In this document: in pieces, positions 3,001 to 46,611 of the stretch
Layout of the letters: every line of letters begins with the position of its first letter
How positions within the stretch are numbered: the stretch's first letter is position 1
NCBI GenBank assembly: GCA_021432635.1
Contig: MU270136.1
Coordinates: 25,914-89,913, forward strand
Direction of reading: 5' to 3'
Length of the DNA: 64,000 nucleotides
Origin: Thozetella sp. PMI_491
Lineage: Eukaryota > Ascomycota > Sordariomycetes > Chaetosphaeriales > Chaetosphaeriaceae
Translations under genes and position numbers: made by a program
The notes under the pieces: generated by a model
Seen by the model: the letters and a program-made list of their open reading frames with translations, nothing else
Told to the model about the DNA's origin: nothing
The model's database searches: none

Positions 3001-3806
3001 TTCAGGTGATGCGGAATCTCCTTGACCTAGCGCGGGACATTTCGTCCTACCGCTGGGGCCATGGCTACATGTCCTTCAAGCCAACCTTCCAATTCATCTC
3101 ATCGATCGCTGTCGTCGGCTATTACCCACTCCAGCAAGGGAATTCATCTCTTGTCCCTGAGAAGAGGATGGCTCTCGAATCTGTCCTTCCCAGTGGCTAT
3201 GGCGACGCCAAATTTGTGTGCGAGCGCTTGATTGACGAGACACTGCATCGCGTTCCAGATCGCTTCCATGCCATGTGTGTTCGGCCGGGGCAGATTGCGG
3301 GCTCGAAGCGAACCGGCTATTGGAATCAAGTTGAGCACCTGCCGTTTCTTCTCAAGTCAGCACAAACCTTGGGCCTGATGCCTAGTTTCCACGGTGACCT
3401 ATGCTGGACGCCGGTCGAGGACGTCGCCGCTGCCGTCGCGGAACTGTTGCTAGATGCGACCGTGCCAGAGCCTGTCTATCACATCGACAATCCCGTGCGG
3501 CAGAAGTGGGAAGAAGCTCTTCCTATACTCATGTCCGAGCTGGGGATACCGACAGGAAACGTGGTAGCCTTTGAGGAGTGGGTACGTCGCGTGCGCACAT
3601 TCCCCGGCTTGGAGTCAGAGAACCCCGCTGCGAAGTTGATTGATTTCTTGGATGATAACTTTTTGAGAATGTCATGCGGTGGGCTATTGTTGGATACCGA
3701 GAGATCCTGTGCACATTCAACAACGCTGGCAAGGGTTCGGCCAGTAGATGAACAGGTCATGAGGGGATATCTACGGGGCTGGAGGGATACAGGTTTCTTG
3801 CGCTGA
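1..3806 (+). CDS. Non-reducing polyketide synthase, C-terminal part (PT-ACP-CMeT-reductase), 5' truncated
   Basis: The frame is open from nucleotide 3 to the TGA at 3804-3806, giving about 1267 visible residues; the SAT, KS, AT and start of PT lie left of the window. Order seen: end of the product-template domain (residues ~1-275), one ACP (~320-395) with GIDSLMGMEL, whose Ser codon at 1062-1064 is the phosphopantetheine site, a Ser/Gly/Asp-rich linker, a C-methyltransferase (~450-820) with the SAM motif LELGAGTGGTT, and a thioester reductase (~880 to end) with the NAD(P) motif VTGATGSLG and a YGDAK (YxxxK) catalytic pair near 3198-3212. In this family the MT adds methyl branches to the poly-beta-keto chain and the R domain releases it as an aldehyde, as in azaphilone and methylorcinaldehyde synthases. 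No intron is needed in the visible part. The neighbouring halogenase and P450 fit tailoring of its product. Confidence 0.95.
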   Translation, partial: LDALISLFPEFSKGRAQPMLCNVENQVALCLDPSRKVWLEAKSNDELRCSWEWSIASAPAIAGNNVKTTKHVTGRAVFVSNEDVDKKSEFARYERLVGYARCTKLLDGSSGDVGIDIMQGRGIYAAFSDVVDYPAQYRGLQKLVGRSLPPLGAGESAGRVVKKHDDKTWLDPVLLDCISQVGGIWVNCMRESAAGDMYIATGFERWARAPELDDRYQRPETWDVFATHQEASDQLFLSDIFAFDPANGKLVEVILGVNYHKVSKLSMRKMLTRLTASDVMIADQPKVLSAELREESLPISDDVVSALQKGDLPNLSSGGPDIWGDVKSLLAEMSGLEPETLQPDSLLADIGIDSLMGMELARELETLFKCSLPSEELMNVVDVISLVRLVQTTLGLPHSSEGEGDDGDDNSSSASIIPMSESGTGATSTSGLSDMGGDDATDGKDTELPPSIIMEAFGESKALTDRFISDYHCSGYMDSALPRQTQLCIALAVEAFEKLGCCLRTSKPGQVLSRIQHIPSHQRLVDYLYQMLSDEARLLDIVDDTITRTQIAAPSKTSDALLAELRRNYPDHDWANRLTHFAGSRLADVLSGNCDGTKLIFGTEEGRELVAGLYGDSLLNKLANVQMQDIITRLVAKIPRDQGPLRVLELGAGTGGTTRDMAALLSRLGVPVEYTFTDLSGSFVAAARKRFGKEYPFMKFRVHDIEKPPAADLVGTQHVIIASNAIHATHNLIESARNIRKALRPDGFLMMLEMTEPLYWVDMIFGLFEGWWLFDDGRCHAIAHQSVWERDLQSAGYGHVDWTDGYSPEVHIQRVFIAFASQSTKDMYKRTTLPTPPINHPTAPQVSPERRARVEEYVRKYSSGFDLSSPADEWDSFDKHTALTPVPNVILVTGATGSLGCYLVAHLSTLPHVHEILCLNRRSPTTEASVRQQRSMADKGISIDAAYNAKLTVLQSDTSKPRLGLSASQYRNLVSHVTHIVHNAWPMSGKRPLSAMEPQFQVMRNLLDLARDISSYRWGHGYMSFKPTFQFISSIAVVGYYPLQQGNSSLVPEKRMALESVLPSGYGDAKFVCERLIDETLHRVPDRFHAMCVRPGQIAGSKRTGYWNQVEHLPFLLKSAQTLGLMPSFHGDLCWTPVEDVAAAVAELLLDATVPEPVYHIDNPVRQKWEEALPILMSELGIPTGNVVAFEEWVRRVRTFPGLESENPAAKLIDFLDDNFLRMSCGGLLLDTERSCAHSTTLARVRPVDEQVMRGYLRGWRDTGFLR

Positions 3807-7314
<3,508 letters not shown>

Positions 7315-26661: not shown

Positions 26662-27204
26662 AATAGTTCTAAGTGATGTTTATAGCAAATGGGGTGCATA
26701 TGTTCTCTTGGTGAGACGAAACACTAGGATGAGGGTGGGTAGAAATCTAGGTCTGAGTACAGTTCTTTGTAGCAGCTTCTGCTTGCAAGAGGCTTGGGGG
26801 AAGGGGGAAGTTGCGGAGACACGCGACGCTTGACTAATCCTTGGTACGGTATGCTTGACGGAGGCACAGCATCGCGAGCAAAGATCCCGAGAATTAGGCG
26901 AGACTTGCCCCATCGCTTATGCTTACTCTGGCGACCTTATTTAGGGTTAGGGTCTATTCTGCCAGCCGTGCCCGCCTTGGCTTTACTACCAATCGTATCT
27001 ACGGTCAGCGGTCTGTGGCCGTCGTTGCCAGGCCTCAAAGCGTAACTATCCTGAAAAGCTATCAGCAGCCATCGTCATCAGGAATACATTTCCCACCTTA
27101 CGGGGGGCAAACCCCCGCCTTGGAATAATTTTGACTGCCTGAAGGATGTCGCACTCGCTGGGAGATTCCCTTGAATAACCATCGTTCGGGGCTCTCAACT
27201 CAAA
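26662..27204. other. Intergenic region upstream of the first HET gene
   Basis: No gene recognised. 5' flank of both the small Cys-rich candidate and the HET gene. Confidence 0.4.
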
Positions 27205-29127
27205 ATGCGTCTTTTGAATGCGAAGTCAATTGCTTTGGAGGCTTTCCCGGATGACCGCGAAATCCCCCCGTACGCGGTGCTTTCGCACACTTGGGGCGAC
27301 GAGGAGGTAACGTTCCAGGAGATGACGCATGGTGACATGGATACGCTCAAGGCGAAACAAGGGTTTACGAAAATTCGTGGCTGCTGTCAAAAGGCGTTGG
27401 GCGATGGACTGCACTACGTCTGGGTAGACACATGCTGCATCGACAAGTCCAGCTCGGCGGAGCTTTCTGAGGCGATCAACTCCATGTTTCGTTGGTACAA
27501 GAACGCCAAGGTCTGTTATGCCCATCTCAACGACGCGCCCGCCGCCAGCAGCCGCCCGACGGAGAGCTACGAGGATCTTCACGCCGCGTACGCGTCATGC
27601 CGCTGGTTCACCCGTGGCTGGACCCTGCAGGAGCTGCTGGCGCCGGCCGATGTGCAGTTCGTCGATGCGAGCTGGAATTACATAGGTACCAAACTTACAA
27701 ACTTGAAAGCCCTCGAAGAGATTACGCGCATCGGCCGGCGGTTTCTCCGCGACGTCGATGAGCTCCAGTTTGCCAGCGTCGCGCAGAGAATGTCCTGGGC
27801 GGCAGGGAGGAAAACCACCCGGCGCGAGGATGCGGCCTATTGCCTTCTTGGCATATTCGGCATCAATATGCCCCTGCTCTACGGAGAAGGCGACAAGGCC
27901 TTCTTCCGACTTCAAGAGGAGATCATGAAGGAGTCGGATGATCAATCCCTCTTCGCCTGGAATCTCGGCATACCTCTCGATCAATGCGGCAATGCAGGGG
28001 GGCTGCTTGCACCATCTCCTTCCGCCTTTGCTAACTGTGGCGACATTATATTCTGGGGGCAGCTGTCCACCATGCAACCCACTCACTATTACATGACAAA
28101 CAAGGGGCTTCGTATCGAGCTGCCGCTAGTCCGCGCGAATGACGACTCCGAGACGGTCTACGCAGTCTTAGATTGTCTCTGCAACATGAAATTTATTTGC
28201 CTCCCGCTCTCCCAAAGCTACCATGAGGATGTCTACCAGAGGACAGAGGGAAGCATACCTCGAACTGTCTCGGCCAGGGTTCGGAATCGAGCGAGGCGGA
28301 AAGTCATATACCTCCAGAAGCACCTCCCCGGAAATTCTCTAACAATGTATTTCGGAATTTCCACCCTGGTAACCACTTCGCTCCGGGATAATAACTATCG
28401 TCTTATCGACGCCTTTCCACCCCATGCTATCCTCAAAGTGGACCCGACGAGCATCACGTGTGGTGATGCGCACCGCATCGTGCTACTCTTTCGGCGAGAC
28501 CGCAGACATCTCTTCGCGCTTCTGATCACCGCTGCCTACACAGCTGAAAAGCACCATCTCTCGCGACCCGTGCTCCAGCACATGACCTGCCAAGTGGCCG
28601 CGGGGCTGACGCCGCGGCGCTTTCTCGCACTCATCTTGGAAGGCGGACTCGCTAGGATCGCCAGCGTCTCACAATTTAAGAACGCCGACGCTGTTGGTAG
28701 CCACATCGTCTCGACGGCGATCCTCGACAAGACTTCTGGCGGCTGGACCATGGGTGTCCACGTAGACACTAACACGAATATTCCAGACTCTTTAGATGAT
28801 AACAAAGGAGACTCAGACACAGACGATATGGAGCCGATATCCATGGTCGCCTTGGCTGCTATGTTCAACAACACGAATCGGGACTTCAGACTGCGGCAGG
28901 CTTGGGCTAGACGAAATAGGTCATCGACAGGCGCTCTATCCCCAAGATTTGCCTACATGATATTCGCCGCTGTATCAGCTGCGGTGCTTTTTATATGGAA
29001 ATTTAAGGAATTGCGATCCTGTCTGGCAGAGCAGCTAAGCACTCTCCTTTTCACAGTGGCTATTTTGGTGCCCGCAATCTTAATATTGGCTCGGTACTTG
29101 GGCAAGCCCGACAGCCGAAATGTGTAG
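27205..29127 (+). CDS. HET-domain (heterokaryon incompatibility) protein with C-terminal membrane helices
   Basis: Single-exon, 640 residues. The HET domain occupies roughly residues 22-170 with the usual blocks YAVLSHTWGDEEVTF, YVWVDTCCIDKSSSAELSEAINSM and FTRGWTLQELLAP. It continues into the segment typical of HET-E-like proteins (QRMSWAAGRKTTRREDAAYCLLGIFGINMPLLYGEG). HET domains mediate programmed cell death after recognition of non-self in fungi. No NACHT or repeat domain follows. Instead the C-terminus has two strongly hydrophobic stretches (FAYMIFAAVSAAVLFIW and LLFTVAILVPAILILA), so the protein may be membrane-bound. The start matches family starts (MRLLNAKSIALEAF). It is the first of three HET genes in 20 kb. 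Confidence 0.93.
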   Translation: MRLLNAKSIALEAFPDDREIPPYAVLSHTWGDEEVTFQEMTHGDMDTLKAKQGFTKIRGCCQKALGDGLHYVWVDTCCIDKSSSAELSEAINSMFRWYKNAKVCYAHLNDAPAASSRPTESYEDLHAAYASCRWFTRGWTLQELLAPADVQFVDASWNYIGTKLTNLKALEEITRIGRRFLRDVDELQFASVAQRMSWAAGRKTTRREDAAYCLLGIFGINMPLLYGEGDKAFFRLQEEIMKESDDQSLFAWNLGIPLDQCGNAGGLLAPSPSAFANCGDIIFWGQLSTMQPTHYYMTNKGLRIELPLVRANDDSETVYAVLDCLCNMKFICLPLSQSYHEDVYQRTEGSIPRTVSARVRNRARRKVIYLQKHLPGNSLTMYFGISTLVTTSLRDNNYRLIDAFPPHAILKVDPTSITCGDAHRIVLLFRRDRRHLFALLITAAYTAEKHHLSRPVLQHMTCQVAAGLTPRRFLALILEGGLARIASVSQFKNADAVGSHIVSTAILDKTSGGWTMGVHVDTNTNIPDSLDDNKGDSDTDDMEPISMVALAAMFNNTNRDFRLRQAWARRNRSSTGALSPRFAYMIFAAVSAAVLFIWKFKELRSCLAEQLSTLLFTVAILVPAILILARYLGKPDSRNV

Positions 29128-33407: not shown

Positions 33408-35378
33408 TCAGTGGATATTGAATGGCCTTAAATCCCCCTTCACGATATCCATAACTAGCGACTCGTCCAAGCAGGGCCCCTCAATGATACCATCGACATA
33501 TCCGCTGCCCACTAGTCGGTAGTAGGTATTGCCGCCTGGCTCAGCTGTGGTGCCGGGTTCCCTGCGAACGAAGAGCGGCAGCTCTGCTTCTATCGGGAGA
33601 AGCACAACGTCCCCGTGCTTGATGTCGTCTGTGCAGATACCAAAGAGACCAGTATCTGTCACTACGAAGGTCTTTCCTTGAAGTGTCATGGCCGCGTCAA
33701 ATATAGCGTTTGTCACGTGGCTGTTTTGGAAAGCATCTTGAAAAGCGTCTGCGAAAAGCTTCTTGATAGAGTAGCGCCCATTTGGCCACATTGGGTGATC
33801 CGCTGGACGGTTTCGGGCATTCATGACATCGCGCAAGAGCGCGTAACCATCTAGTATTTCCATCGCCGACGCCGGTTTGTCGAAGTTTTTCCAGTGGGCA
33901 ATAGGCGCGAGAGCTAGACGAGGAGCAAGCGTCCTTGCATTTCGAACGCCTGCCCATGGGTTGTTTCTTGTGCTGGTGGCCCCTGCCAGGATACTATGTA
34001 GCAAATCGGCAATTTGACCCACCCGGATCATGATGGTGTTTCCCATACGTAGCGCTATGCGACAAGACCCGAGCGGACGGCCCAAGAAATGTAACGTCTT
34101 GAAGTCGCTAGAAATCCGGGACGGTGGAGGCGGCGTTGGCGATCCTGTCCAGAACCTTAAGCTTGGGGGGACTGTTTTGAGTTGCAGGTTGATCTCAGCG
34201 CGAGCGAGGTCTGGCGCCCACGAAGGATAAGATAGGTCCGATAGCCGGCCGTCCCGCAAAGGGAAGTAGGTAAACACAGAAGCACCGAGCTCTTCGTTAA
34301 TCATGTATGCGCTCGCCTCCAGCAGGACTTGCTTTGCCGGTTTTCTGTAGTCTGCTGGATACGCTTTCTGGGCCTTTGGCATCATGCCATACAAACCATA
34401 CACCTTGTCGCGATCATCGCTGCACCGGCGCTTGGCTGTCATCTGAAGGAGGTGGCACAAGATATGTTCGGAAAATTTGTTCCCGCCGTGGTTCACCTCC
34501 ATCAGAAAATAACCCACCGCGTCAGTTATGGCCTTTTTATCTTCGGAAAGGTGGAGCTGGAGGGATGGTTTTGTGATATACGCCACGATCCCCGCTACTG
34601 CCAGCTGTAGCTTTCCGACCCCTTCAACGTCGAAAATGGACGCACGGAAAATCAAATGCCCACAAACGCAGATCGGTTCCTCTTTGGCCAGTCGGTATTC
34701 CTGGAATGTCCACACACGAGCCCAGTACGGTGAAGTAGCCAGAGCATGGATTCCGTCGACAACCGCGAAAGCCGCTAGATTTCTCTGCTCACTATCCTCC
34801 TCAGGAAATTCAGCGTCGATGTCAAGAGGCTGCATCTTTGAGGATGACTTGTCCGGCACGTAGCGCTTCGCCCACGCTATTGCTGCTTCGATATTAGAGT
34901 TAGCGGCGCCCAGCCATGCGATTACATTTACACAGTCAGAGTATATCCTGCTCATGAGAGGTATCTGAAAGTTCTTTTCGTCGGTGTCGACTTGGTTAAT
35001 GCAGACGGCGTCCACCCACAGTGTCCTGGGGGCATCGGAGTGTCGAAGGTAGCGCAGGGCCAGCTCGAGGTTGACCGACACAGGCCACGGATCGCCATCG
35101 ATAGCGATAGTTTTCTTGATACTATCCTCGCCCCACACATACGACAACGCCTCAAACTGAGGCCGGTCATTGAGAGAAACGACACGGAGCGAGCATTGCA
35201 GCGGGCTATCGAAGATGGTATCCGGGTCAATGGTAAGTACTCGTATCTCCGCGCGCGTAGGCTCAAGTTTACCGTAAATCCGCGACATCGCATTGTTGAT
35301 TTCGCTCTCAGTCCGCTGGCAGAACCAAGGTGCGAGCGGCTCGGCTCTGGAAGAAGTATCAGCCTCACCGCATTTCAC
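33408..35378 (-). CDS. HET-domain protein (HET-6 type)
   Basis: Single-exon frame of 656 residues; a second Met at 35285 (MSRIYGKLEP) may be the true start. The HET domain blocks are clear: FEALSYVWGEDS, LWVDAVCINQVDTDEKNFQIPLMSRIY split over two short motifs, VIAWLGAANSN, and YWARVWTFQEYRLA. They are followed by the DDRDKVYGLYGMMP motif and SYPSWAPDLA usual in the HET-6 group, and a long C-terminal half ending with the conserved-type GDVVLLPIEAELPLFVRRE. No other domain is attached. Such proteins trigger cell death in incompatible fungal fusions or act as downstream effectors of non-self sensors. It lies next to the ankyrin/CorA-like gene, read in the same direction 1.1 kb away. Confidence 0.93.
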   Translation of the reverse strand: MKCGEADTSSRAEPLAPWFCQRTESEINNAMSRIYGKLEPTRAEIRVLTIDPDTIFDSPLQCSLRVVSLNDRPQFEALSYVWGEDSIKKTIAIDGDPWPVSVNLELALRYLRHSDAPRTLWVDAVCINQVDTDEKNFQIPLMSRIYSDCVNVIAWLGAANSNIEAAIAWAKRYVPDKSSSKMQPLDIDAEFPEEDSEQRNLAAFAVVDGIHALATSPYWARVWTFQEYRLAKEEPICVCGHLIFRASIFDVEGVGKLQLAVAGIVAYITKPSLQLHLSEDKKAITDAVGYFLMEVNHGGNKFSEHILCHLLQMTAKRRCSDDRDKVYGLYGMMPKAQKAYPADYRKPAKQVLLEASAYMINEELGASVFTYFPLRDGRLSDLSYPSWAPDLARAEINLQLKTVPPSLRFWTGSPTPPPPSRISSDFKTLHFLGRPLGSCRIALRMGNTIMIRVGQIADLLHSILAGATSTRNNPWAGVRNARTLAPRLALAPIAHWKNFDKPASAMEILDGYALLRDVMNARNRPADHPMWPNGRYSIKKLFADAFQDAFQNSHVTNAIFDAAMTLQGKTFVVTDTGLFGICTDDIKHGDVVLLPIEAELPLFVRREPGTTAEPGGNTYYRLVGSGYVDGIIEGPCLDESLVMDIVKGDLRPFNIH

Positions 35379-36482
35379 GGAGGAAGGTTTGTCCGTTGCT
35401 GACCCAATGTGCCTGGACAGCTCAGCCTCACGACGATTGGGAATACGAAGTCCGGGCGTCAGCTATGTTGATTCGCTAAATGACTTGACTCTTCGGAGAG
35501 ATAGACGTCGCCATATACCCTATTTATCCTATCGCAGGCCTGGAACAGACACTAAGTTGATAATTATCGTAATTATCATTATAACATACCCTTTACCTTT
35601 TAAACACTTCATCTAAGGCTCGCTCCTACAGTCATGGCATCGCTCGGCGTCTACAAATCAATCCTGCGTGCTATCTAAGTATATGTAATTGCCGCCGATC
35701 GGCTTCTATTTGTCTACTAGACTCATATCTAGGAGCAATTGAATAAAACCTTAAATAGCACTTTTGAGAGTATTAAAGACAAGGACAAGCCAAGGTTAAC
35801 TTAGGGCTAACTTCGAACTACAGAATGCTCAACAAAAGAAGAGGCTAGCGTTAAACTCCTTCTCCCATTGCTAAAGGCGGCATATATTCACTGCCCATCT
35901 TATCACATCCGTGTACTTATCATCGGCAAGCGACGGGCTAAGGCTCTAGGCTTGGGGTACTTTCTACGGAATAACGAATATTTAGCTACACGACCCCTGC
36001 CCTCCTTCTCTACCTAAAAAATGTCACTGTTAAAGACAAAGATGAAGTTCCAATAATTTTGTACATCTTCCTTCTATTAATTAATACGGCATTTTTTTTT
36101 AATTATTTAAAGATAGTAATGAATATGTATGTAGTAGAGTATTTACGACACAAGCGAACTAGCACAATTGTCTCGCACAGTGAATACCGCACCCAGCATC
36201 TTGGGCACAATTAATATTAATGGATATAAATTATCCCCCTTTAAAAGTCGATATTAAAGCAACTCCGTCGTCTTCGTACTAACACACCACCAACAACCAG
36301 AAATGTCAATGCTGTGGCTACTGGACCCGCCACAGCACCAGCTATCCATCCCTTAGATGGAACTGCACTTATTAGTGAGCGATAAGTACAAAAAGCAAAA
36401 CGAATGGGATTCCTCCCATATTTTAGCTTCCAACTCGCGCAGCTTATACTTTTCACTTGTTTGCTATTGCCTCACCCGAGTT
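35379..36482. other. Intergenic AT-rich region, one membrane-anchor-like ORF fragment
   Basis: No firm gene. A minus-strand frame at 36456-36241 contains a single hydrophobic helix followed by RRRR (GWIAGAVAGPVATALTFLVVG), the shape of a fungal single-pass anchor. It lacks an obvious partner exon and may be a relic. The rest (35560-36180) is AT-rich. Confidence 0.35.
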
Positions 36483-39400
36483 TTACGCACCGAACTCTGG
36501 CTCCTTGTTTGGCCGCTTGGCTATTAATGACCAAGTTGCTAAACGAGGGAATGCAGTAGTAATACGTGGGATAATACGGGGAGGTTGCGGTAAAATCCAT
36601 GACAAGATCCATCTTCGCAGCTTAGGTAGGTATATGATACTTGAAACAATAATCGCAACGAATGTCACTATTTCGCCGATTCCTGCAAAACTTGTCAGCA
36701 ACGCGAGCAGATTATGCGCACCCCAATACTTCTTTTACCTAATCGAGCTGCAATCCATCTAGAACTATACAGCACGGCGCCGTTATCATCCCTTGGGAAT
36801 ACATCGAGATTGATAGCGAAAAGGCTGGTCATAAAAGATAGCGGTGTCTGTTGCGCAACACATCAGGTTAACTAGGCCTCATGCTAATGTCGAAAGGGTA
36901 TATTTGAGGGCGAGCGAAGGGGAGGGCCGATGGCTTAGTAGGGCAGGAAATAATCGTACGAAGATAATCGTCACTATGGTGAACAGCATGATAAAGTCGT
37001 TCTGTCTTCTGGCAAGTTCTGCCTCGGCCAAAGAACTTTGTGCTTGTTTCGTTTGTACCAGATAGTCCAGCTGTTTCGGGGTCAGCGTCCAATATCACGA
37101 GCGACATTGAAGCGAGGAATAGGGGTCCGGCTGCATACTGCATTTAGCATCCTCTCAGCATCCGTGTCCAGCCTCTCGGTGCGCTTCATGAGAGCTTCTA
37201 TACCACAGTCCTGAATGAACTGCTCTCGGTAGTTCTTTTGCAAGTCAGAAGTGCCGGGCCAGAGTATGATAGACAAGTTTTCAAGAACACTACGCTGGTT
37301 CTCAAAGACCCGGAGGATCAGATGCAGTTCGTCGCGTATGTCCTTGACCTCGTAGATGAGCTTGATTTCTTTGTCGATCGACTTGGCTTCTTCTTCGATC
37401 GTCTTTGCGTCCTTGGTGTTGGGTTCGTCCTTATTCTTACTGGATTTGGCGCTCGGTTTGGATGTTATGGAAGTATGGAATGTTTTGAAGCAGAGGGATT
37501 CTCCGTCGGACTAAAGGTTGGATGAGTTAGCTCGCGCTCTGTCTATAGCGAGGTACAAAGCAGAGTGGCGCCATACCCGTGTGGCAATGCAGCTTTCGAA
37601 TATATCTAGGATATGCACGCCGAGACCCGCATACTTGAATTTGTCGAGAAATGTGGCACACTCGTGGATGATATGCCCCATGAGCTCCTCTGGGCTCAAA
37701 AATGACCGAATTCCACTTTGCCGTACTGTATCCAAAAGACTGTCTTCGTGGCCAATATGCCATCTCTCTGGGAACGTCGTGACAATGGTACCTTTGTAGA
37801 AAGTCAGTTGCCGTATTGATCAACAGCGTTACCAAGCAGTACCGACTTTCATCTAATTTCCAGAGCCAGAGTTGATGCACTGTGAGCAGCCTCTTCGCAG
37901 CTTGCTGACTAGGTGGCTTCGCCGGGCTCTGGTCGGTGGTATTGAACTTGTTGCCTAGAAAGGATTTGTTTCGTCCAATGGGTTTCCCGAGGGTTGGCTC
38001 ATATACCGTCCCGTTTGAAGCTTCAAATGGCTTTCCACCCTCGACAACCGAGGTAATGTCTTGAAAATCCGTCAGCATCCAAGTGGATCTTGTTCTCGAA
38101 TGCAGGTTCTTACATGGAACTTCGACATCGTCATCTGATAGGCTTGTAGAATGAATCCGCTGGCATCTATGCGTGTGAACTACTCCGGTCGAAGTTGCGC
38201 TCGGGATGCATCTGCATTCAATCTCATGGGGGAACCATTTGTACACGACTTGGTCTTCGTCTCGGATCTTGAGGTCTTCGATGCAGAGAATATCATAATA
38301 CGACTGGTCCAATGTCTGTGCCCCTTGATGCCCGGAAATTCCTTCGAAGGGTAGGTAGCATGCCTCCAACTCAGCCATAATCTCGGCCTGCTTATGCTTC
38401 GGTCTGTTGAATTTGTTAAATTTATGCCGTTCGAGATATTCCGCCGTCTCGAAATCGATATAAGGAAGCTTCCAATACGTCAGCGTCATTGGCCGGAGGA
38501 GGAATATTGAGCAGTTGTAGGATCCTTAACACACAACGACAGATAGCTTTCCATCCACAGGGAAGCTGGTGTTACTCTTCCAAGCCTCTCTCCCCAATTC
38601 TCCCGGGCCGCTGGACAATGTTTCGGAAACCTCAGTTTTCGAACCTGCGGTGTCTGCAGATGCGACAGACGCTCTCTTCTCCCCGGGTCCACTGACCCCA
38701 GGAGGGAATGTGCCGGCTTTCGTAGTGTTCTTTGGCAAGGGACCAGTGTTCGCCCTATCGGCATTCTTCCAGGAATCCTTGGCCTGTGCTCCGTCAGTTT
38801 ATCCTCGTCGTTCGTCGTTTAAGTAGAGAACATAAAGCGCCACTGACGTGAGGCATCCTGGTGCAGCCAACATTGCCTCCACTTTTTTCTCTCATATTTT
38901 CTTCCAAGAAACCCCATACCTCAGCCTTTCTCTCGGCCGAATCGAAGTCTTGAATCCAGTACCAGACGAAATCCTAGCCTCCTTAGTCAGATTCTGTTCC
39001 TGGAAACCATGAGGGGCATAGTTAGCAAGCAAACCTTAACCCATGTCATCTATGACAGGTGTCAGCTGAAGTTTGTAGTTCTCGGGTACGTCCGAACCGC
39101 TGTGGTCCGCAAGTCAACTCACGTTGTTTGCCGGAAAGTGTATCCATTTCCATACATCCTTTTTGCTGACTTCATGTAACCCTTTGCCGCACGCCTCCTT
39201 CTGGAGGAAGCTTATATATTTCTCTTCAATCTCGTGAAACTTTGTTGTGTAAATGAAGTCGTATACCGAAACTCGGTACGACCACGGGAAGTTGCCATGC
39301 CTCCAGTAGAACCAGATGCTGACCCAGAATTTCTCGCTGACCCTCCGCTGCTTCGTTCCGCACGTTGGTTTCGCGTTGGGTACCGGAACCAGTTTCCGGC

Positions 39401-40449
39401 CGCGCTGCTTCCCGGGGTCATCATCGAACAAGTACAAGTACTTGCGCGCCGCTGGCTCGCGGTTGATAATGTCTCGCGGCGTATCGCCTTCGGAATTGCA
39501 TACGTGTGCGTCGGCGCCATTTGTCAGCAATAAGTCCACAATCTTCTCGCTGACTTCTCGGTCCTGCCTCTGGAGATCTGTCGGTTCGGGGAGGCGACCT
39601 TGGTCATCCTTGGTGTCTGCCTCACGGGCCAATGCGGCAGCCGCATCATGCAAGGGAGAGTCCCCTGTCTGTGTTAGCCATCAACTTGAGTGCTTTCTCG
39701 GTACGTGCATTTTGCTAGGGCCTCCCGATAGTGCCACACCAGATATGGTACCTACCAGATGCGACTCTTGTGTTCACCTCGGCGCCATTATCGATTAGAA
39801 GCTTGATAGTGGCATACTTCTGGTGACCCCATTGCACCACGGCATGCAGCGGGGTTCTGTATTGGTTGTCCACTGCATCAATGTCTGCTCTGTTGGCCAG
39901 TAGGCTCTCGATAATCTCAGGTATCCCAAGTATTGCTGCTTCATGGAGGGCGGTCCTGCCGAGGTCGTCTTTGGTATCGATGCCCTTATTGATTTGCGAA
40001 TGTAGGAGTAGTTCAGAGACCACGCGTTGATCCTCTGCTTTGACCGCGCGGTGCAGTATCGTCCGTCCGCGCTTGTGCGTAACGATTGTGCTCCTGCAAT
40101 TGATCAACGGCGTTATAACCCCGTATTTGCCAGCATCGACAGCCTTGAATAATTCGTCCAGAAGCGTGTCGTCCATCAACTCTTCGTCCTTCGTCTTCAG
40201 GGGCTTACTCGCCGCTGCCCTCAGCCTCCATGCTGCATCAATCCTTGTCGGTTCGCCTGACGCTACCGCGCTAACGAACTGGGTCTTCCATATTTCGTGA
40301 GATACTTTTTGTAGTCTATCTACCGTTGGCTCTCTTTTCGCGCCGCTGGCCATTGGCGGTTCCGTGTTTGCAGTTTCTGCGTTGCTCGGTTGTACGACTG
40401 GCAACGTGGGCAGTCGAAGGTGGGGAGATGACATGGTTGATACACCCAT
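36483..40449 (-). CDS. Ankyrin-repeat protein with C-terminal CorA-like membrane domain, 12 exons
   Basis: Twelve segments keep one frame to a 1071-residue protein: 40449-39756, 39664-39123, 39049-39035, 38973-38848, 38783-38576, 38524-38114, 38059-37847, 37791-37577, 37510-37139, 37070-36960, 36847-36739 and 36682-36483. Ankyrin repeats lie at ~115-300 (GRTILHRAVKAEDQRVV, GRTALHEAAILGIPEII, YRTPLHAVVQWGHQ, DSPLHDAAAAL, EGDTPRDI). Next comes a central part with the blocks TLDQSYYD, VHQLWLWKLDES and TIVTTFPERW known from a large fungal family of ankyrin/CorA-like proteins. After a charged coiled region (EEEAKSIDKEIKLIYEV), two membrane helices follow (FIMLFTIVTIIF and IVTFVAIIVSSIIYL) around PLSFMTSLFAINLDVFP. 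Family members are often found near HET genes; a transport or signalling role is not proven. The third exon is only 15 nt. Splice sites were placed by frame and family agreement; the 38575-38525 intron is the least certain. Confidence 0.82.
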
Positions 40450-42059
40450 TAATCGGCGGTATCCATCTACTGAAGAACCAAGGGAGCTTTATGGGTGGTA
40501 GTGTCTGGGAGAAGGCAGCAGGGCGGATATTTCTTCGACAAAAGTCGGCTGCGGCAGCTTAGGCAGTGGAGGTTTCTACAGCTACAGATGAGCCGCAATT
40601 CTTGGGTAGATGCCCCGGACCAATTGTCGCTCCAAGATAAGCTGCAGCCTGCTTGAGGTCGTGTGCTAACATGCTGAAAGTTGGTCGGCTTTCGCCCAAG
40701 CTAAACTTGCAGCTGAACGGCACAGGTTCGAGTTGAGTAATAAGAGAGGCAAAAGACGGACTAGGCTGAGTAAATGGATGGGCATCTGCAGCTCGAGTCG
40801 AGGCTATGCAGATTGTATTGGTCTCCTACGCTGCGGCCGACTGACAAAAGTGGAGTTTTGCAGCATTTCAGCGAGCCACAGCGGGATGGTGCAGGTTCCC
40901 CAACGAATCAAAGCATGGTAGTATCACTGTCGCGCAGCGAATGTGGTGTGGAAGGTAGTTAGCGAGTTGTGATAGGATTCGCTGTACATGGATGTGATTT
41001 CGGGCGGCCATTCCCGTTTCGGGAATAATTACCAGGCAATGCAGGAATCTGCCGCTGCGAGTCGGGAAGAATTGGCCCCCAAAGCCTTTGAGCCTCGCAG
41101 CAGGCAGGCAGTGGCGATGACAGTATGGATTGTGAGTCACTTGGATCTGGTCTTTGATGCCTCCACCGTCAGTAGGTTGTATGCAGCGTGTTGCCAAGTG
41201 CCAATGCTCATCTGATCCTCCCCCCTGGCAAAGCTGTTGATCAAGCTCATGTTCTTGAACACGACCTTCAGCTTCCGGAAGTACTCCGGTGACCATTTAA
41301 AGTCGTACCTGTTACATCGCATAAAGAGGGAGGGGAAGGGGGGCGCACGAACTGCTTATTGGACTGCCGTCCTGCAGCTGAAGTTTCAACAGGGTTTAGT
41401 GTGGGTGACGCTCTCAATGGGGGGAGGGGGACGAGAAAGCTGATAGGGGATTTATGTAAGTTGGCGCTCGCTAAACTGACCTGAGGCAGCTCAAGTGGCC
41501 ACGAGGCTAAATCCGAGGTGAGTGTGACTCACTCTGGAGGCATCTCCTCAGCCATTAGCTGGTATAAACTGGATCCAAAGCGGCATAGATTATTATACTA
41601 ACTGCGAAAAGATATTTGGTTAAACGATGGGTACTGTCCAAGATAAGTCATTAGAATTCTATCATAAGCCAAGCATCGTACAGTGTATCAATCCTAGGTA
41701 GCTAGATGATCAAACAATTAATAATAGCTAGGGAGTCCTAACGTAGAGCCAAGCTTAACCTAATATGCTCCCTTCGAGCCACTCAATACTACCGAAAGAA
41801 GACGCCGGTATTAGACTGCTTCCGATTCCAAAGGAAGCGCTTTGTCCTCTAGCAGCAGGTCTAGGGCATCGATTGCGACGAAATGTTCTCCTTTTCGTTG
41901 AACTAAAACAGTTCAGATCAGATCCTAACTGTAACTAATTGTAAAAATTCACTTAGTAACTTGTAATATATTTGATACTTAACTTATACAGTCTATTATC
42001 GATACCATGGTCCTCCTAGTCTTCTATAAATCCGTTAAATAGACCCTTGAGCTTAATTA
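40450..42059. other. Intergenic region left of the Fot1-like element
   Basis: No firm gene. Minus-strand frames at 41322-41137 and 41296-40868 look partly protein-like (FKWSPEYFRKLKVVFKNMSL) but could not be joined or recognised. The part from 41560 is AT-rich. Confidence 0.4.
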
Positions 42060-42105
42060 AGTCGACCTACGTGCCAACCGCCCACCCCCCTCAACCGCCC
42101 ACCTC
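42060..42105. repeat. Left terminal inverted repeat of the Fot1-like element
   Basis: Begins AGTCGAC right after TA and carries ACCGCCCAC twice, separated by a C-rich spacer. It matches the complement of 43971-44015. Confidence 0.92.
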
Positions 42106-42252
42106 AAATCCACACCAGCCATATGGACCACATATAGTAAAACAGCCACAACTCAGTCAATTTTTACTCTGTAAACATAAAAACTAGTGCAATCTGCTCA
42201 TTATACAGTAGCTCGTTCAACCAGTATAAGAGGACCCGGTCGGATCTTCGTT

Positions 42253-43830
42253 TTACCGGCGCCGACCACGCCGTGGTGGCTCCACAGCATACTCGCTTCC
42301 AGATGACTCCTCCTCCTCGTCAGTGGCCACATCGATACACTCTGCTGCAGTTAAAGCTTCAACAGTACGTTGTATAGGTTCTTTATTACGTTAAGCAAGT
42401 ATATCGCCAAGAGTAACAAAGCGTTTGTTTGGATTTGGTTTCACAGACTTCCTTTTCCTCGGCTTGGCCAGTTCCAGTTTCTCTCGGAGAGTGACCAACT
42501 CTCTCGCTTGTGTAACAAGTGTAATGTTAAGGTTGTTGAGTTATCTAGTAATCTTCCTTATCACTTGGCGTGTTGTAGGGCTTATACCCTTATACTGTAG
42601 CAACCGCTAGATGTCTGTACTACTTTTTAGCGTATTAATGCCTGAAAAGAGTGAGGGAGGGGGGGTTGTAGCCCGGGGCTCTGGGCGAGTCAGTACCTAT
42701 AGGGATATGAGTAACTTCTATCTGTTGACTGGCTAGAGACTAGTTGCTTGCCAGCTAGAGAGTATATTCTCTTTCTAGAGGCTAACTGTATAAGCTTTAA
42801 AGTATAACTTAAAGAACCTAAGCTTCTTAATACAATCCTTATCTGTACTGGCTATAAGGGTATTCACAAGTGACTAGTATCGAGCTTTAAGACTTGAGAA
42901 ACAGCCTAAATCTAGTGGCTGGGTGACGTGGGAGGTATAGGCAGGTAAGAACAATAGATATATATTGTGGAGGAAGTATATAGCAAGGAAGTCATTAGTC
43001 TGATAGGATTTATAGCCATCTAATATAAGAAGCTAAACAGTTAAAGGATCCTTAGGGTTAGTTTGTATGAGAAAGACCTTCTCCAGCCACTTAACAGTAA
43101 TCTTATTGCTAGTCCACCCATTATTAGAGACTATTACCTGCCAAGTAGGGTGCTGATAAAGTATCTCGTCGCAAAACTATTAATCCTGGACCTGTTTCCC
43201 TTTTAGGATCACCAGGGGATTAAGGCATTATCCTCTGGCAGAGATATATTTGATGATAAAGATCTAGGAGTGTGAGGTATTAACTTTAAGGGGAGTTATA
43301 GTCTTTCTAGGGCTAGTCGAGGCCCTAACAACAAGACTATTCCCCCCCTGACCCTCTATAAGGCCCCCCTTATCAGTATTATACCTATTCTCTAGGAGGA
43401 TCTAGCTTATAGTCTTGTATAGTTTAAACAACTGGTTGATATTGTCAGGGCAGGCTACATTCACTCTAGCCCACTTAATACAACAACCAAGCTTTGTTTT
43501 AAGGACAGGCTAGCGTTTAAGGAAGGTCGTAGTCCATCGCTGGCTAAGAGGATCATTATCCCCCTAGCTCGCCAAGATCCAGATCATTAAAATATATAGT
43601 TAAGAGTGGATTAAAGTAAAACCAAGGGATTCCTAACGTAAAATCCACTCAACTAGGCGTTCTTTAGCCTCTAGAGATACCCTCTGCCGACACTAGGCCT
43701 CCTCCTCCCAAGGGGAGCTTCTATAGATACGACCGCGGAGCGTACTCCGGGGGACCTTCCAAATCCGGCTTGCCTCATAGACTGGCGTGCCATCGTCAAT
43801 ATCAGCAACGGCCGAAGAGAAATCTAAACT
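42253..43830 (-). pseudogene. Decayed Fot1/pogo transposase
   Basis: Translating the minus strand gives a recognisable transposase from about 43830 (psq-type helix-turn-helix, KVPRSTLRGRI) through LKTKLGCCIKWARVN and the DDE domain, to an acidic/basic tail (DEEEESSGSEY, PRRGRRR) ending with TAA at 42253. At least five in-frame TAG/TAA codons interrupt it where related proteins have Trp, Gln or Arg, which is the change expected from C-to-T mutation such as RIP. It cannot produce a working enzyme. Confidence 0.85.
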
Positions 43831-43970
43831 AGTGTAAGAAGCTATAAAAGTAATGAAAAGATAACGATTCTAATGAGCTACTTACCGTATCGATCGAGCG
43901 CGTGGATCTTATATAGTGGTGGTTGGTATCAAGGGGGTGAGGGAGAGACGCGTCGCGCGTTAGCATGTAA

Positions 43971-44015
43971 GGGTGGGCGGTTGAGGGGGGTGGGCGGTTG
44001 GCACGTAAGTCGACT
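43971..44015. repeat. Right terminal inverted repeat of the Fot1-like element
   Basis: Ends GTCGACT followed by TA at 44016-44017. It is the inverted partner of the left repeat, with one visible base difference (T for C) near the tip. Confidence 0.92.
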
Positions 44016-44017
44016 TA

Positions 44018-44430
44018 TATTGAATGTGATAATAGAAGGTGCCACCCTAATCTGACCGAAGATCATCATTACAGTGGTTGAAAAAAAAAGCTTATAGGCA
44101 TGTAGTATGAAAGATTTACGAAAGGTAAGAGAGAGATGAAGCGCCGGACATGAGGAATCCTTTTGCGTAGGTGAAGTATGAGATCTCCTTGCATGTGTTG
44201 AGCTGGGTTGTTGCTTTTGTGGCGTCCATAGTTATAGGAGAACCAATCAAAGGTTTGCCGGTCTTGTGCTTACAGGGCCAAAGGAGGGGTAAGTTTAAGT
44301 TGGTTACACTGTGAAGTCTTGATTCTCACCTCGTTACGGCGAGTTTCTTTTCCATAATGAGAAGTCTTTCTGCGCCATATCCTCAGATCAAACCCGCCCG
44401 GTCCCCAATATCGCACGAAACGTCTTGGAC
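44018..44430. promoter_or_regulatory. 5' flank of the third HET gene
   Basis: Short region between the transposon end and the HET start. No motif recognised. The insertion of the element about 415 bp upstream may have altered the promoter; this is inference. Confidence 0.35.
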
Positions 44431-46611
44431 ATGCCCGAGTATCGCAGCTTGGACTTGGGTGGAGACGAGGTTAGAGTGCTGGCTTTGCACGAGGAAACCA
44501 CGTCCGACTTCATAGAATGCTCGTTGGAGTATGTCTCGCTGAACGACTTCTCGAAGGAATACCTCGATTTCCTTAAGTTTCTGGGAACCGAAAAGCCAAG
44601 GCCATTTGAACTCAATAACCTTTGGGAATTTCTCAAGGATCCGGAAAGGGATATCGAGCTCATCAAACCTACAGATGACTCTGGCTATTTTGGAAATATA
44701 GCGGCACATTTCTCGGGCGACTATTCTTTCCCACCCGGCCCGTTCGAAAATGCAAACCGGTACACATGGGGCGACTTCTGCGCCTTGTCATATGAATGGG
44801 GAGACCCCACCTTGACGGCTGAAATCGTTGTCGATGGGGGCAAGGCTACGGTGACGCGGAATCTAGAGCAAGCCTTGCGTAGCGCACGCCATTGGCTGCG
44901 CACCAGACACCCTGACGAGAAGGTCTTCATCTGGGCCGATGCACTGTGTATAAACCAACTCGATATCTCCGAGCGTAATTCGCAGGTCAAACGCATGGGG
45001 CGAATCTATACGGATGCCTGGCATGTATTGGTATGGACCGGCGGTCCCCTCAGCATTGGCGACGAAGAGGTTATGGAAATCCTTTATAGAGCAGCAGGTT
45101 CGTCTCTTGACTCGACCAATGCGGCGATTGAGGACCTGGTATCACCGGAGAAGAGCGACGCATGGATGGGTCTCTTTGAGCTAGGCGCTAGATCCTATTG
45201 GAAGCGGCTTTGGATCATCCAAGAACTTCTGCTTGCCAATACCGGTTCAGTACTCTTCTTTGGCGACAAATCTTGCTTAACCGCGGTATACTTGCGAGCT
45301 TGGGCTTATGTCGTGACACATCACGTTACACTCACCTCCAAGCTTGGTACAGAAGCCTCTGAGGCACTTAGGCGCAGCATTCAAGGTGCCGAGCGCACTG
45401 AGAGATTTATGCACCTAATTCGGTTCAAGATCGACGCAGAACCGTACCCCCCGCTGTTGCTACTACTAAGTTCGGGCCGCCGAGCCAACCAGAAAGATGA
45501 AAGGGACAAAGTATACGGGGTCATGGGGCTAATGGCTCCGCACATCAGCAGTGCCATTGTGACGGATTATGAGCAATCTGTAGCCCAGGTGTATTCCAAT
45601 TTTGCAAGAACCGTCATCGCTACCACTGGACAGCTTGATATTATTTATCAAGGACCGCCAATCGAACAGAAGAAGCAAGTGCAGCTACCGACTTGGGTTC
45701 CTGACTGGTCGGTCGGAGGGTGGTCTGATACTCCTGCGAAAGAAGAGGGAGACGAAGGAGACGAAGGAGACGAAGGAGACGAAGGAGACGAAGGAGACGA
45801 AGGAGACGAAGAAGAAAGACAGGGAGATGAGGAGGAAAAGGAGCTGAATCTGCGGGTTCTAAATCTTGTGGCCGTGGATTATTATGACGGCTACAGGGCA
45901 TCCGGGCAGATTCGCCATGTCTATCGAGATGGAGAAGACCCCAGCGAGCTCCTATGCAGGGGGTTTCGGGTTGACTCCATCGATGGCCTTGGTTGTACGT
46001 GCCTGATGGATGGTTATGATTACGCACACAACAGTTCTTCCCCGTCAACCGCGAACTCCGAGTCAGTAATGGCTGATAAAAGTCTCGAAGAGCTTCGCCG
46101 GGCATTCTGGAGCACATTGAAGATATGGCGCGGCACTGACGACATATCCTTCTTACAAGATTTACCTTTTTTCGACGGAAATATACCCCAGGACACGCCA
46201 TATTTCTCCCTTTTCGACTTGTTCCAACAATGCCACAAAGATTTCATGGTGGGCGGGAGATCATTATCTTCATTTCTTCCCCCTTGGTCAGAAGAGTACA
46301 AGGACACCATGGAAGAATTGCAGGCCGATACGCAGAAGTTTGGCGTGGTGGATCGACTTCTGGTCACGCTTCGATCCCGACGGTTGGTAACGACGACATC
46401 GGGCCGTCTTGGAATGTCTCCTGGCAGTGTACAGAAGGGAGATTCTATTTTCATCTTGAATGGATGCACTGTACCACTCCTATTACGGCCAAATAACGAC
46501 AGAACGTGGCGTGTGATAGGAGAGTGCTTCATTTATGGTCTCATGGATGGGGAGGCTATAGCAGCTTTGGAGAGAAATGAAGTTTTCGAAGTAGATGTCT
46601 TGTTACGGTAA
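44431..46611 (+). CDS. HET-domain protein with an acidic Gly-Asp-Glu repeat
   Basis: Single exon. The first ATG (44431, MPEYRSLDLGG) gives 726 residues. The HET domain is at ~115-270 with FCALSYEWGDPT, FIWADALCINQLDISERNSQ, VLVWTGGPLS and YWKRLWIIQELLLA, followed by KDERDKVYGVMGLMAP and LPTWVPDWSVGG. A longer N-terminal stretch than usual precedes the domain. In the middle, 45748-45810 is a perfect run of seven 9-bp units coding Gly-Asp-Glu, within an acidic region. The C-terminal part closes with the family's GRLGMSPGSVQKGDSIFIL and YGLMDGEA motifs. Role as in other HET proteins: regulated cell death after non-self recognition, possibly as effector of a separate sensor. The dead transposon ends about 415 bp upstream. 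Confidence 0.93.
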   Translation: MPEYRSLDLGGDEVRVLALHEETTSDFIECSLEYVSLNDFSKEYLDFLKFLGTEKPRPFELNNLWEFLKDPERDIELIKPTDDSGYFGNIAAHFSGDYSFPPGPFENANRYTWGDFCALSYEWGDPTLTAEIVVDGGKATVTRNLEQALRSARHWLRTRHPDEKVFIWADALCINQLDISERNSQVKRMGRIYTDAWHVLVWTGGPLSIGDEEVMEILYRAAGSSLDSTNAAIEDLVSPEKSDAWMGLFELGARSYWKRLWIIQELLLANTGSVLFFGDKSCLTAVYLRAWAYVVTHHVTLTSKLGTEASEALRRSIQGAERTERFMHLIRFKIDAEPYPPLLLLLSSGRRANQKDERDKVYGVMGLMAPHISSAIVTDYEQSVAQVYSNFARTVIATTGQLDIIYQGPPIEQKKQVQLPTWVPDWSVGGWSDTPAKEEGDEGDEGDEGDEGDEGDEGDEEERQGDEEEKELNLRVLNLVAVDYYDGYRASGQIRHVYRDGEDPSELLCRGFRVDSIDGLGCTCLMDGYDYAHNSSSPSTANSESVMADKSLEELRRAFWSTLKIWRGTDDISFLQDLPFFDGNIPQDTPYFSLFDLFQQCHKDFMVGGRSLSSFLPPWSEEYKDTMEELQADTQKFGVVDRLLVTLRSRRLVTTTSGRLGMSPGSVQKGDSIFILNGCTVPLLLRPNNDRTWRVIGECFIYGLMDGEAIAALERNEVFEVDVLLR
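45748..45810 (+). repeat. Coding minisatellite, 7 x 9 bp
   Basis: Seven identical tandem copies of GGAGACGAA, in frame with the HET gene, coding Gly-Asp-Glu repeats. Copy number can change by slippage without shifting the frame. Confidence 0.97.

Follow-up and report, generated by a model that had tools for sequence, protein, structure and literature searches.

An ankyrin-CorA gene flanked by HET genes in Thozetella sp. PMI_491 and its CorA paralogues, one of them with a NACHT-like part

Introduction

Two-gene allorecognition loci such as het-c/pin-c of Neurospora and het-B (Bh/Bp) of Podospora consist of a HET gene adjoining an unlike gene, and divergent alleles under balancing selection have been shown there, as far as the available text of the two sources goes (PMC2988816, PMC10890737). 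The same layout is present, by coordinates, in the stretch of DNA considered here (the window: 64,000 nucleotides of contig MU270136.1 of Thozetella sp. PMI_491), but the unlike gene codes for a protein with ankyrin repeats and a CorA-type membrane part (ANK-CorA), the locus is known from one genome, and the flanked arrangement was seen at one further locus. Fungal NACHT-ankyrin NLRs offer a second comparison: their NACHT-like P-loop part and ankyrin repeats are shared by a paralogue of the window gene on another contig (C1), which carries a C-terminal CorA module in addition, whereas the scanned parts of the window gene itself contain no NACHT match. HeLo and gasdermin pores are the immune membrane effectors alongside which an ANK-CorA protein would stand, and fungal genomes carry expanded HET, ankyrin and CorA gene families.

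CorA magnesium channels, whose signature is GMN after the first helix, have PF01544 and two C-terminal hydrophobic stretches in common with the window gene, and differ from it in that AIN replaces GMN and ankyrin repeats are added. A soluble N-terminal part joined to a CorA-type membrane domain is also found in the SAM-AMP-activated CorA effector of type III CRISPR systems, for which the available part of the source proposes pore opening in defence (PMC10600005); its N-terminal domain differs from the ankyrin part of the window gene, whose host is eukaryotic. No type III CRISPR locus or CRISPR-CorA-type gene was found among 20 frames scanned in the window, matches of the window protein to PADLOC CorA models are weak (E 6e-4 and 2e-3) and confined to its membrane part, and a family protein from contig C9 has no match to these models. 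Among the literature matches listed, none describes a NACHT-ankyrin-CorA fusion, and the nearest entry, to judge from the portion available, is A. nidulans AN6960, with a WD domain, an ankyrin repeat and a CorA-like part (PMC5371717).

Organisation of the locus

The preliminary description of the window had seen in positions 33408..46611 a non-self recognition island, with an ankyrin/CorA-like membrane gene and a transposon between two HET genes and a third HET gene further left, and this layout is borne out by domain matches and by the gene model (Table 1). HET genes 1 and 2 lie on either side of a single intact ANK-CorA gene, the pogo/Fot1-type transposon is placed between this gene and HET gene 2, a tannase gene separates HET gene 3 from the island, and the domain scan of the window frames sets the whole, HET gene 3 included, among sugar-use genes.

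Table 1. Coordinates of the HET genes, the ANK-CorA gene and the transposon in the window
Feature	Position	Strand	Description
HET gene 3	27175..29127	+	PF06985; other HET subclass
HET gene 1	33408..35462	-	open frame, stop to stop; PF06985
ANK-CorA gene	36483..40434	-	11 exons, 1079 aa; PF12796 and PF01544
Transposon, pogo/Fot1-type (DDE_1)	42058..44017	-	broken transposase reading frame; 46-nt terminal inverted repeats
HET gene 2	44323..46611	+	open frame; PF06985

All three HET genes exceed the curated PF06985 cut-off of 22.5 bits: HET gene 1 with 105.4 bits (E 4.4e-30), HET gene 2 with 93.7 bits (E 1.8e-26) and HET gene 3 with 58.7 bits (E 1.1e-15), the last match being partial (profile positions 1-93 of 146). 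The first ATG of the frame is found near 35288 in HET gene 1 and near 44431 in HET gene 2, which also contains a 9-bp tandem repeat (45748-45815), and hydropathy marks the C-terminal stretch of HET gene 3 as hydrophobic. Sequence search up to E 1 returned no solved structure for HET gene 1, and an AlphaFold model of it built on an alignment of three rows reached a mean pLDDT of 30.6 and was not used. The terminal inverted repeats of the transposon are 98% complementary, its stop-free pieces match DDE_1 (best E 4.6e-11), and ten further copies were found with at least 90% coverage and 78-93% identity; ARAGORN reported no tRNA.

The ankyrin-CorA gene

The predicted ANK-CorA gene has 10 GT-AG introns and zero internal stops; an earlier model that broke mid-gene was discarded once the paralogue on C2 had revealed the correct frame. 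Its first exons encode the ankyrin part (PF12796, E 3.8e-22), and the CorA domain (PF01544, E 1.5e-12, 47.9 bits; cut-off 27) lies with two predicted membrane helices at the 36483 end, the hydrophobic stretches covering aa 966-984 and 1014-1032 (hydropathy 2.08 and 2.11). The protein was scanned as two separate parts, with 125 aa between them outside the scan: the N-terminal 412 aa matched ankyrin families only, the C-terminal 542 aa matched CorA only, and neither part gave a NACHT or NB-ARC match. The gene thus has the CorA domain and paired C-terminal helices of a CorA channel, and lacks its motif, the GMN position reading FAIN. A profile built from three family members hits CmaX at E 6e-4 and CorA structures at E 2e-3 to 3e-3, in each case through its membrane part, values near 2e-3 being weak in this structure search since an unrelated viral glycoprotein chain is listed at E 2e-3; no plasmid record resembles the CorA part.

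A CorA family with a NACHT-like member

The window gene is one of about 12 genes that make up a narrow CorA family in this 72.3-Mb genome, the 11 others being the union of three protein searches, none of which lists all of them; three weak matches, C5:1592k (E 8e-4), C46:333k (E 0.002) and C20:336k (E 0.005), were excluded. In the paralogue on C1, ankyrin is matched at E 2.1e-13 and PF24883, which represents the P-loop NTPase part of NACHT-like proteins, at E 7.3e-30, while PF05729 (NACHT) falls just below its cut-off (24.8 against 26.7 bits). Its CorA module follows the NACHT-like/ankyrin part on the same strand, and the 15-nt exon of the window gene model appears to recur at the junction, so that from its gene structure C1 reads as a NACHT-like/ankyrin/CorA fusion, an NLR-like receptor.

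In the five members found to bear ankyrin, GMN is replaced by AIN (window), TIN and AIN (two genes on C9), AIP (C2) and ALQ (C1). GMN is thus kept in 0/5 of them and in 3/3 members without ankyrin in the fetched sequence (C54, C66 and C91, where a home-made ankyrin profile was run over 20, 10 and 10 kb), a link noticed after the fact. Three further members, their N-termini outside the reading, show SMN, SMQ and ALS, and the twelfth (C11:522k) is left out of these counts.

These observations bear on the claim that the locus encodes a sensor joined to a membrane protein of an immune kind. The C1 paralogue and the absence of GMN from the five ankyrin-bearing members found speak for it; the evidence for a partnership with HET proteins is weak. 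The family looks akin to fungal immune receptors as far as its domains and motifs can tell, and appears a better lead than the HET partnership. The reading that we favour, tentatively and at somewhat below an even chance, is that ANK-CorA, rather than transporting magnesium, is a membrane effector gated by its repeats that belongs to the fungal NLR/HET repertoire and needs no HET partner; its place in this repertoire is argued from the C1 paralogue, which has the same module after a NACHT-like/ankyrin part. In this reading the chromosome stretch is one in which independent HET genes cluster and which also contains one member of the CorA family. The ankyrin repeats would bind a cytoplasmic ligand or a guarded target, this binding would open or assemble a CorA-type oligomeric pore, and the pore, devoid of the magnesium selectivity motif, would allow an ion flux leading to regulated cell death or signalling. 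The NACHT-like/ankyrin/CorA gene and the motif loss in the ankyrin-bearing members are concrete, testable grounds for regarding ankyrin genes annotated as 'Mg2+ transporter, CorA-like' as candidate immune membrane effectors.

The effector reading has against it that fungal CorA expansion has been interpreted as magnesium transport, in the part of the source available (PMC3897900). That interpretation, together with a CorA domain above its curated cut-off and the two C-terminal hydrophobic stretches, would suit an ordinary divalent-cation transporter with regulatory or scaffolding ankyrin repeats and accidental HET neighbours. We consider this unlikely, as GMN is replaced in every ankyrin-bearing member found although separate CorA-family genes of the genome keep it, and as one paralogue has a NACHT-like receptor part.

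HET genes in the neighbourhood of the family

HET genes are numerous and clustered in this genome, so that flanking alone is weak evidence. The HET list holds at least 266 loci, drawn from the best candidates scored, and one search alone gave 440 first-look candidates. Adjacent HET pairs within 12 kb number 26 against 9.4 expected, and four triplets within 20 kb occur among 240 listed loci, the window being one of them, where 0.5 would be expected under uniform placement, or 3 if there were 440 HET genes. This clustering, the transposon beside HET gene 2 and the clustering of HET and lineage-specific genes in Neurospora, as described in the available text of PMC10684091, could be accounted for if the stretch evolves fast, bears transposons and accumulates lineage-specific genes, with HET genes common in such stretches and ANK-CorA in non-immune signalling. 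Such an explanation appears improbable to us, to the same degree as the transporter: the stretch lies among ordinary genes for sugar use, and both the motif change and the NACHT-like/ankyrin/CorA paralogue point to a membrane role of immune type.

The proposal of a joint non-self recognition unit, in which ANK-CorA works with one of the flanking HET proteins or with both, sensing being done by the repeats and killing by HET or CorA, was confronted with the neighbourhoods of the 11 other family members. This narrow-family test, made after the wider set described below and after C9 and C66 had been seen, is the one relied on. At least one listed HET gene lies within 10 kb of 2/11 members, a frequency not above that of the controls, 10/92 for P450 loci (105 matches merged) and 11/70 for ankyrin loci, the latter inflated since at least two frames combining HET and ankyrin (C22, C42) remain after removal of C14 and C40, which have both in one frame. 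Control genes reach 2/11 in 43% of draws and random points in 15%, the random-point probabilities resting on the contig extents seen and not on true lengths. Adding the three weak matches gives 2/14 by the same HET list.

The count of two HET genes within 10 kb behaves differently: 2/11 members against 0/162 control loci (0/92 P450, 0/70 ankyrin), matched by 0.15% of random-point draws, which may mean that the HET neighbourhood is not neutral. The numbers are small and the signal fades with distance, to 1/11 at 8 kb and to 2/11 against 4/162 at 15 kb. The members concerned, C9 near 1.24 Mb and C66, are both of those having HET neighbours, with two HET genes each. The former is the sole other locus seen with the order HET, ANK-CorA, HET; its HET genes are not closely related to those of the window, and the HET subclasses differ. 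The two HET genes at C66 are on the same side of a CorA gene that keeps GMN and in which no ankyrin was found.

When neighbourhoods of 20 kb around ten CorA genes were read directly, with a home-made HET profile built from three sequences, HET frames appeared in 2/10 (C9 near 1.24 Mb and C15). Four of the ten are narrow-family members (C9 twice, C2, C54), and HET frames are absent within 10 kb of C2, of C54 and of the other member on C9. Over 10 kb at three more members, the reading showed one HET frame at C66 and none at C1 and C91; for C18, C10 and both members on C11 the HET lists were relied on, for three of these together with about 1.5 kb of flank. In addition, contig C16, with the closest paralogue of HET gene 2 among the matches listed in the same genome (44%), has no CorA match in protein searches. 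A joint unit, in spite of the HET genes on both sides, the order repeated at C9, the two-HET count and a layout known from the loci described in part in PMC2988816 and PMC10890737, is therefore less probable still than the two preceding alternatives, given the single-HET counts, the differing HET subclasses, the one-sided C66 locus, the members devoid of HET frames and the C16 paralogue.

A more far-reaching version is the least probable of all, a long shot: fungi would use CorA-type pores as effectors of NLR-like receptors, adjacent TIR-like HET enzymes would make or relay the opening signal, and NACHT-ankyrin-CorA and ankyrin-CorA proteins would have given up magnesium selectivity in favour of an ion flux gated by a ligand, as a eukaryotic analogue of the SAM-AMP-activated bacterial CorA effector.

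A wider CorA set of 27 loci, many of them merely broad PF01544 matches, shows no HET excess either, with 2/27 within 10 kb against 9/92 P450 and 11/70 ankyrin loci, on the basis of 240 listed HET loci. This set consists of 34 positions minus seven: the window gene, C51 and C112 (taken as ordinary transporters by score), C69 (taken as MRS2-like) and the weak matches C77, C12 and C46:403k. Close to the matches set aside, HET genes lie at 14 and 16 kb from C77, about 9 kb from C51 in a later list, and a HET match is found about 11 kb from C46:333k.

Composition of the HET/ANK-CorA island

The genome covered comprises 72.3 Mb in 157 contigs, and the window, located on contig C122, has a fungal gene content. 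The preliminary description had read this region as an island in which HET genes lie on both sides of a large ankyrin/CorA-like gene (hereafter ANK-CorA), accompanied by a transposon and a third HET gene, and all of these elements were recovered, the third HET gene as a partial domain match.

Features of the island and of the NACHT-like relative on contig C1 (L040 is the stretch C1:2747000-2756999)
Feature	Position	Strand	Description
HET gene 1	window 33408-35462	minus	HET domain, E 4.4e-30
HET gene 2	window 44323-46611	plus	HET domain, E 1.8e-26
HET gene 3	window 27175-29127	plus	HET domain, partial match, E 1.1e-15
ANK-CorA gene	window 40434-36483	minus	Single open model, 11 exons, 1079 aa
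Transposon	window 42058-44017		46-nt inverted ends; DDE_1 transposase pieces
NACHT-like + ankyrin frame	L040, 5397-7493	minus	699 aa; PF24883, PF12796
CorA module of C1 member	L040, about 3443-4965	minus	ALQ instead of GMN

The glutamate at position 162 of the HET gene 1 protein is invariant across the three window HET proteins, and it may be the glutamate of functional relevance noted in PMC9815663. HET genes are abundant in this genome (440 candidates at first look; 266 loci, merged from several searches, used for neighbour counts). The loci also cluster among themselves: of 240 listed, adjacent pairs no more than 12 kb apart number 26 where 9.4 are expected, and there are four triples spanning at most 20 kb where 0.5 are expected. 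Since the window is one of these four, a trio of HET genes over 20 kb is uncommon without being unique.

The transposon has ten further copies in the genome, each with at least 90% coverage and 78-93% identity. The closest (93%) occupies C18:787285-789244, and a HET gene (C18:782989-784116) lies about 3 kb from it. Neighbours of the HET/ANK-CorA stretch include a dynamin-like gene, a sulfatase, sugar transporters, a PcRGLX-type lyase, a tannase and an amidohydrolase, all but the first being genes of plant sugar use that surround the stretch (window 18490-53365). The frame at window 6345-6971 matches tryptophan halogenase (PF04820, E 5.1e-8).

Association of CorA-family genes with HET

A union of protein searches of the genome gave a CorA-module family of 12 loci, three weaker matches being set apart. 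At least one listed HET gene was found within 10 kb of 2 of the 11 members other than the window gene, against 10/92 P450 and 11/70 ankyrin loci, a count reached by random points in 15% of draws and by control genes in 43%; the family is thus not enriched for HET neighbours at 10 kb. In contrast, both of these members have two HET genes within 10 kb (2/11 vs 0/162 control loci), a result that only 0.15% of random-point draws reach; the figures become 1/11 vs 0/162 at 8 kb and 2/11 vs 4/162 at 15 kb.

One such member, on C9 near 1.24 Mb (L019/L020, C9:1238350-1246083), repeats the order HET / ANK-CorA / HET. One of its HET genes ranks 32 of 66 listed matches to HET gene 1 and 50 of 88 to HET gene 2, and the other is not among the listed matches to either. 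At this locus the ankyrin frame stands head-to-head with the first of the HET frames, with about 200 bp between frame ends. On C66, both HET genes lie on the same side of a CorA gene that keeps GMN and in which ankyrin was looked for and not found. No HET frame occurs within about 10 kb of the C2, C54 and second C9 members, and the closest paralogue of HET gene 2 among the matches listed (44% identity) is on C16, a contig without a CorA match. The low HET ranks at C9, the C66 arrangement, the members lacking a HET frame and the C16 paralogue speak against a fixed partnership, and we lean towards the view that ANK-CorA and HET form no fixed pair. The interpretation given in the preliminary description is partly supported.

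Two-gene loci in which a HET gene adjoins an unlike gene, as in the window, are described for het-c/pin-c (PMC2988816) and het-B (PMC10890737). In a lichen fungus, CorA, HET and ankyrin families are all reported to be expanded (PMC3897900); Cladonia grayi is reported to have expanded HET and ankyrin families (PMC6652019), and Trichoderma to have gained ankyrin and HET genes (PMC10512326). HET domains are presented in PMC10197012 and PMC12881547 as TIR-like and inducing cell death, allorecognition not being the business of most HET genes.

The CorA module and a NACHT-like member

The introns of the ANK-CorA model, ten in number, are all GT-AG and 55-112 nt long, and its coding sequence is free of internal stops. 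Ankyrin repeats (PF12796, E 3.8e-22) occupy the first part of the protein and a CorA domain (PF01544, E 1.5e-12) the last; aa 966-984 and 1014-1032 are hydrophobic. The closest sequence matches of the membrane part are CmaX (E 6e-4) and structures of CorA (E 2e-3 to 3e-3), and the same list includes a single unrelated viral chain; PADLOC CorA models match the membrane part weakly (E 6e-4), and do not match the C9 relative. The nearest entry among the open-licence papers covered is A. nidulans AN6960 (WD domain, ankyrin repeat, CorA-like) in a table of PMC5371717.

GMN is the signature of CorA channels. The motif comparison covers 11 of the 12 loci (all except C11:522k): the five members found with ankyrin carry AIN (window), TIN and AIN (both C9), AIP (C2) and ALQ (C1) at this position; GMN is kept in three members without ankyrin in the fetched sequence (C54, C66, C91); three more, whose N-termini lie outside the reading and which are counted in neither group, have SMN (C10), SMQ (C18) and ALS (C11:57k).

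In the most likely mechanism, the ankyrin repeats would bind or sense a cytoplasmic target, and the CorA part would assemble in the membrane as an oligomeric pore that lacks magnesium selectivity and opens upon sensing. A signal from a HET enzyme might possibly be passed to this pore, on the model of the SAM-AMP system (PMC10600005).

A lead more interesting than the HET neighbourhood is that CorA may serve fungal NLR-like proteins as an effector module. Among the open-licence papers listed in the literature survey, no description was found of ANK-CorA and HET working as a system, nor of a NACHT-ankyrin-CorA protein, which at this scope is weak evidence of novelty. On C1, the 699-aa frame upstream of the CorA module, on the same strand, combines a P-loop part of NACHT-like type (PF24883, E 7.3e-30; PF05729 itself scores 24.8 bits, under its cut-off of 26.7) with ankyrin repeats (PF12796, E 2.1e-13), and the junction matches the family pattern, an ENN/ANN end followed by an apparent 15-nt exon, MEWIE (MTWVK in the window gene). 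With this frame and junction, the C1 member resembles an NLR that carries a CorA module at its C-terminus, and looks like a putative NACHT-ANK-CorA gene.
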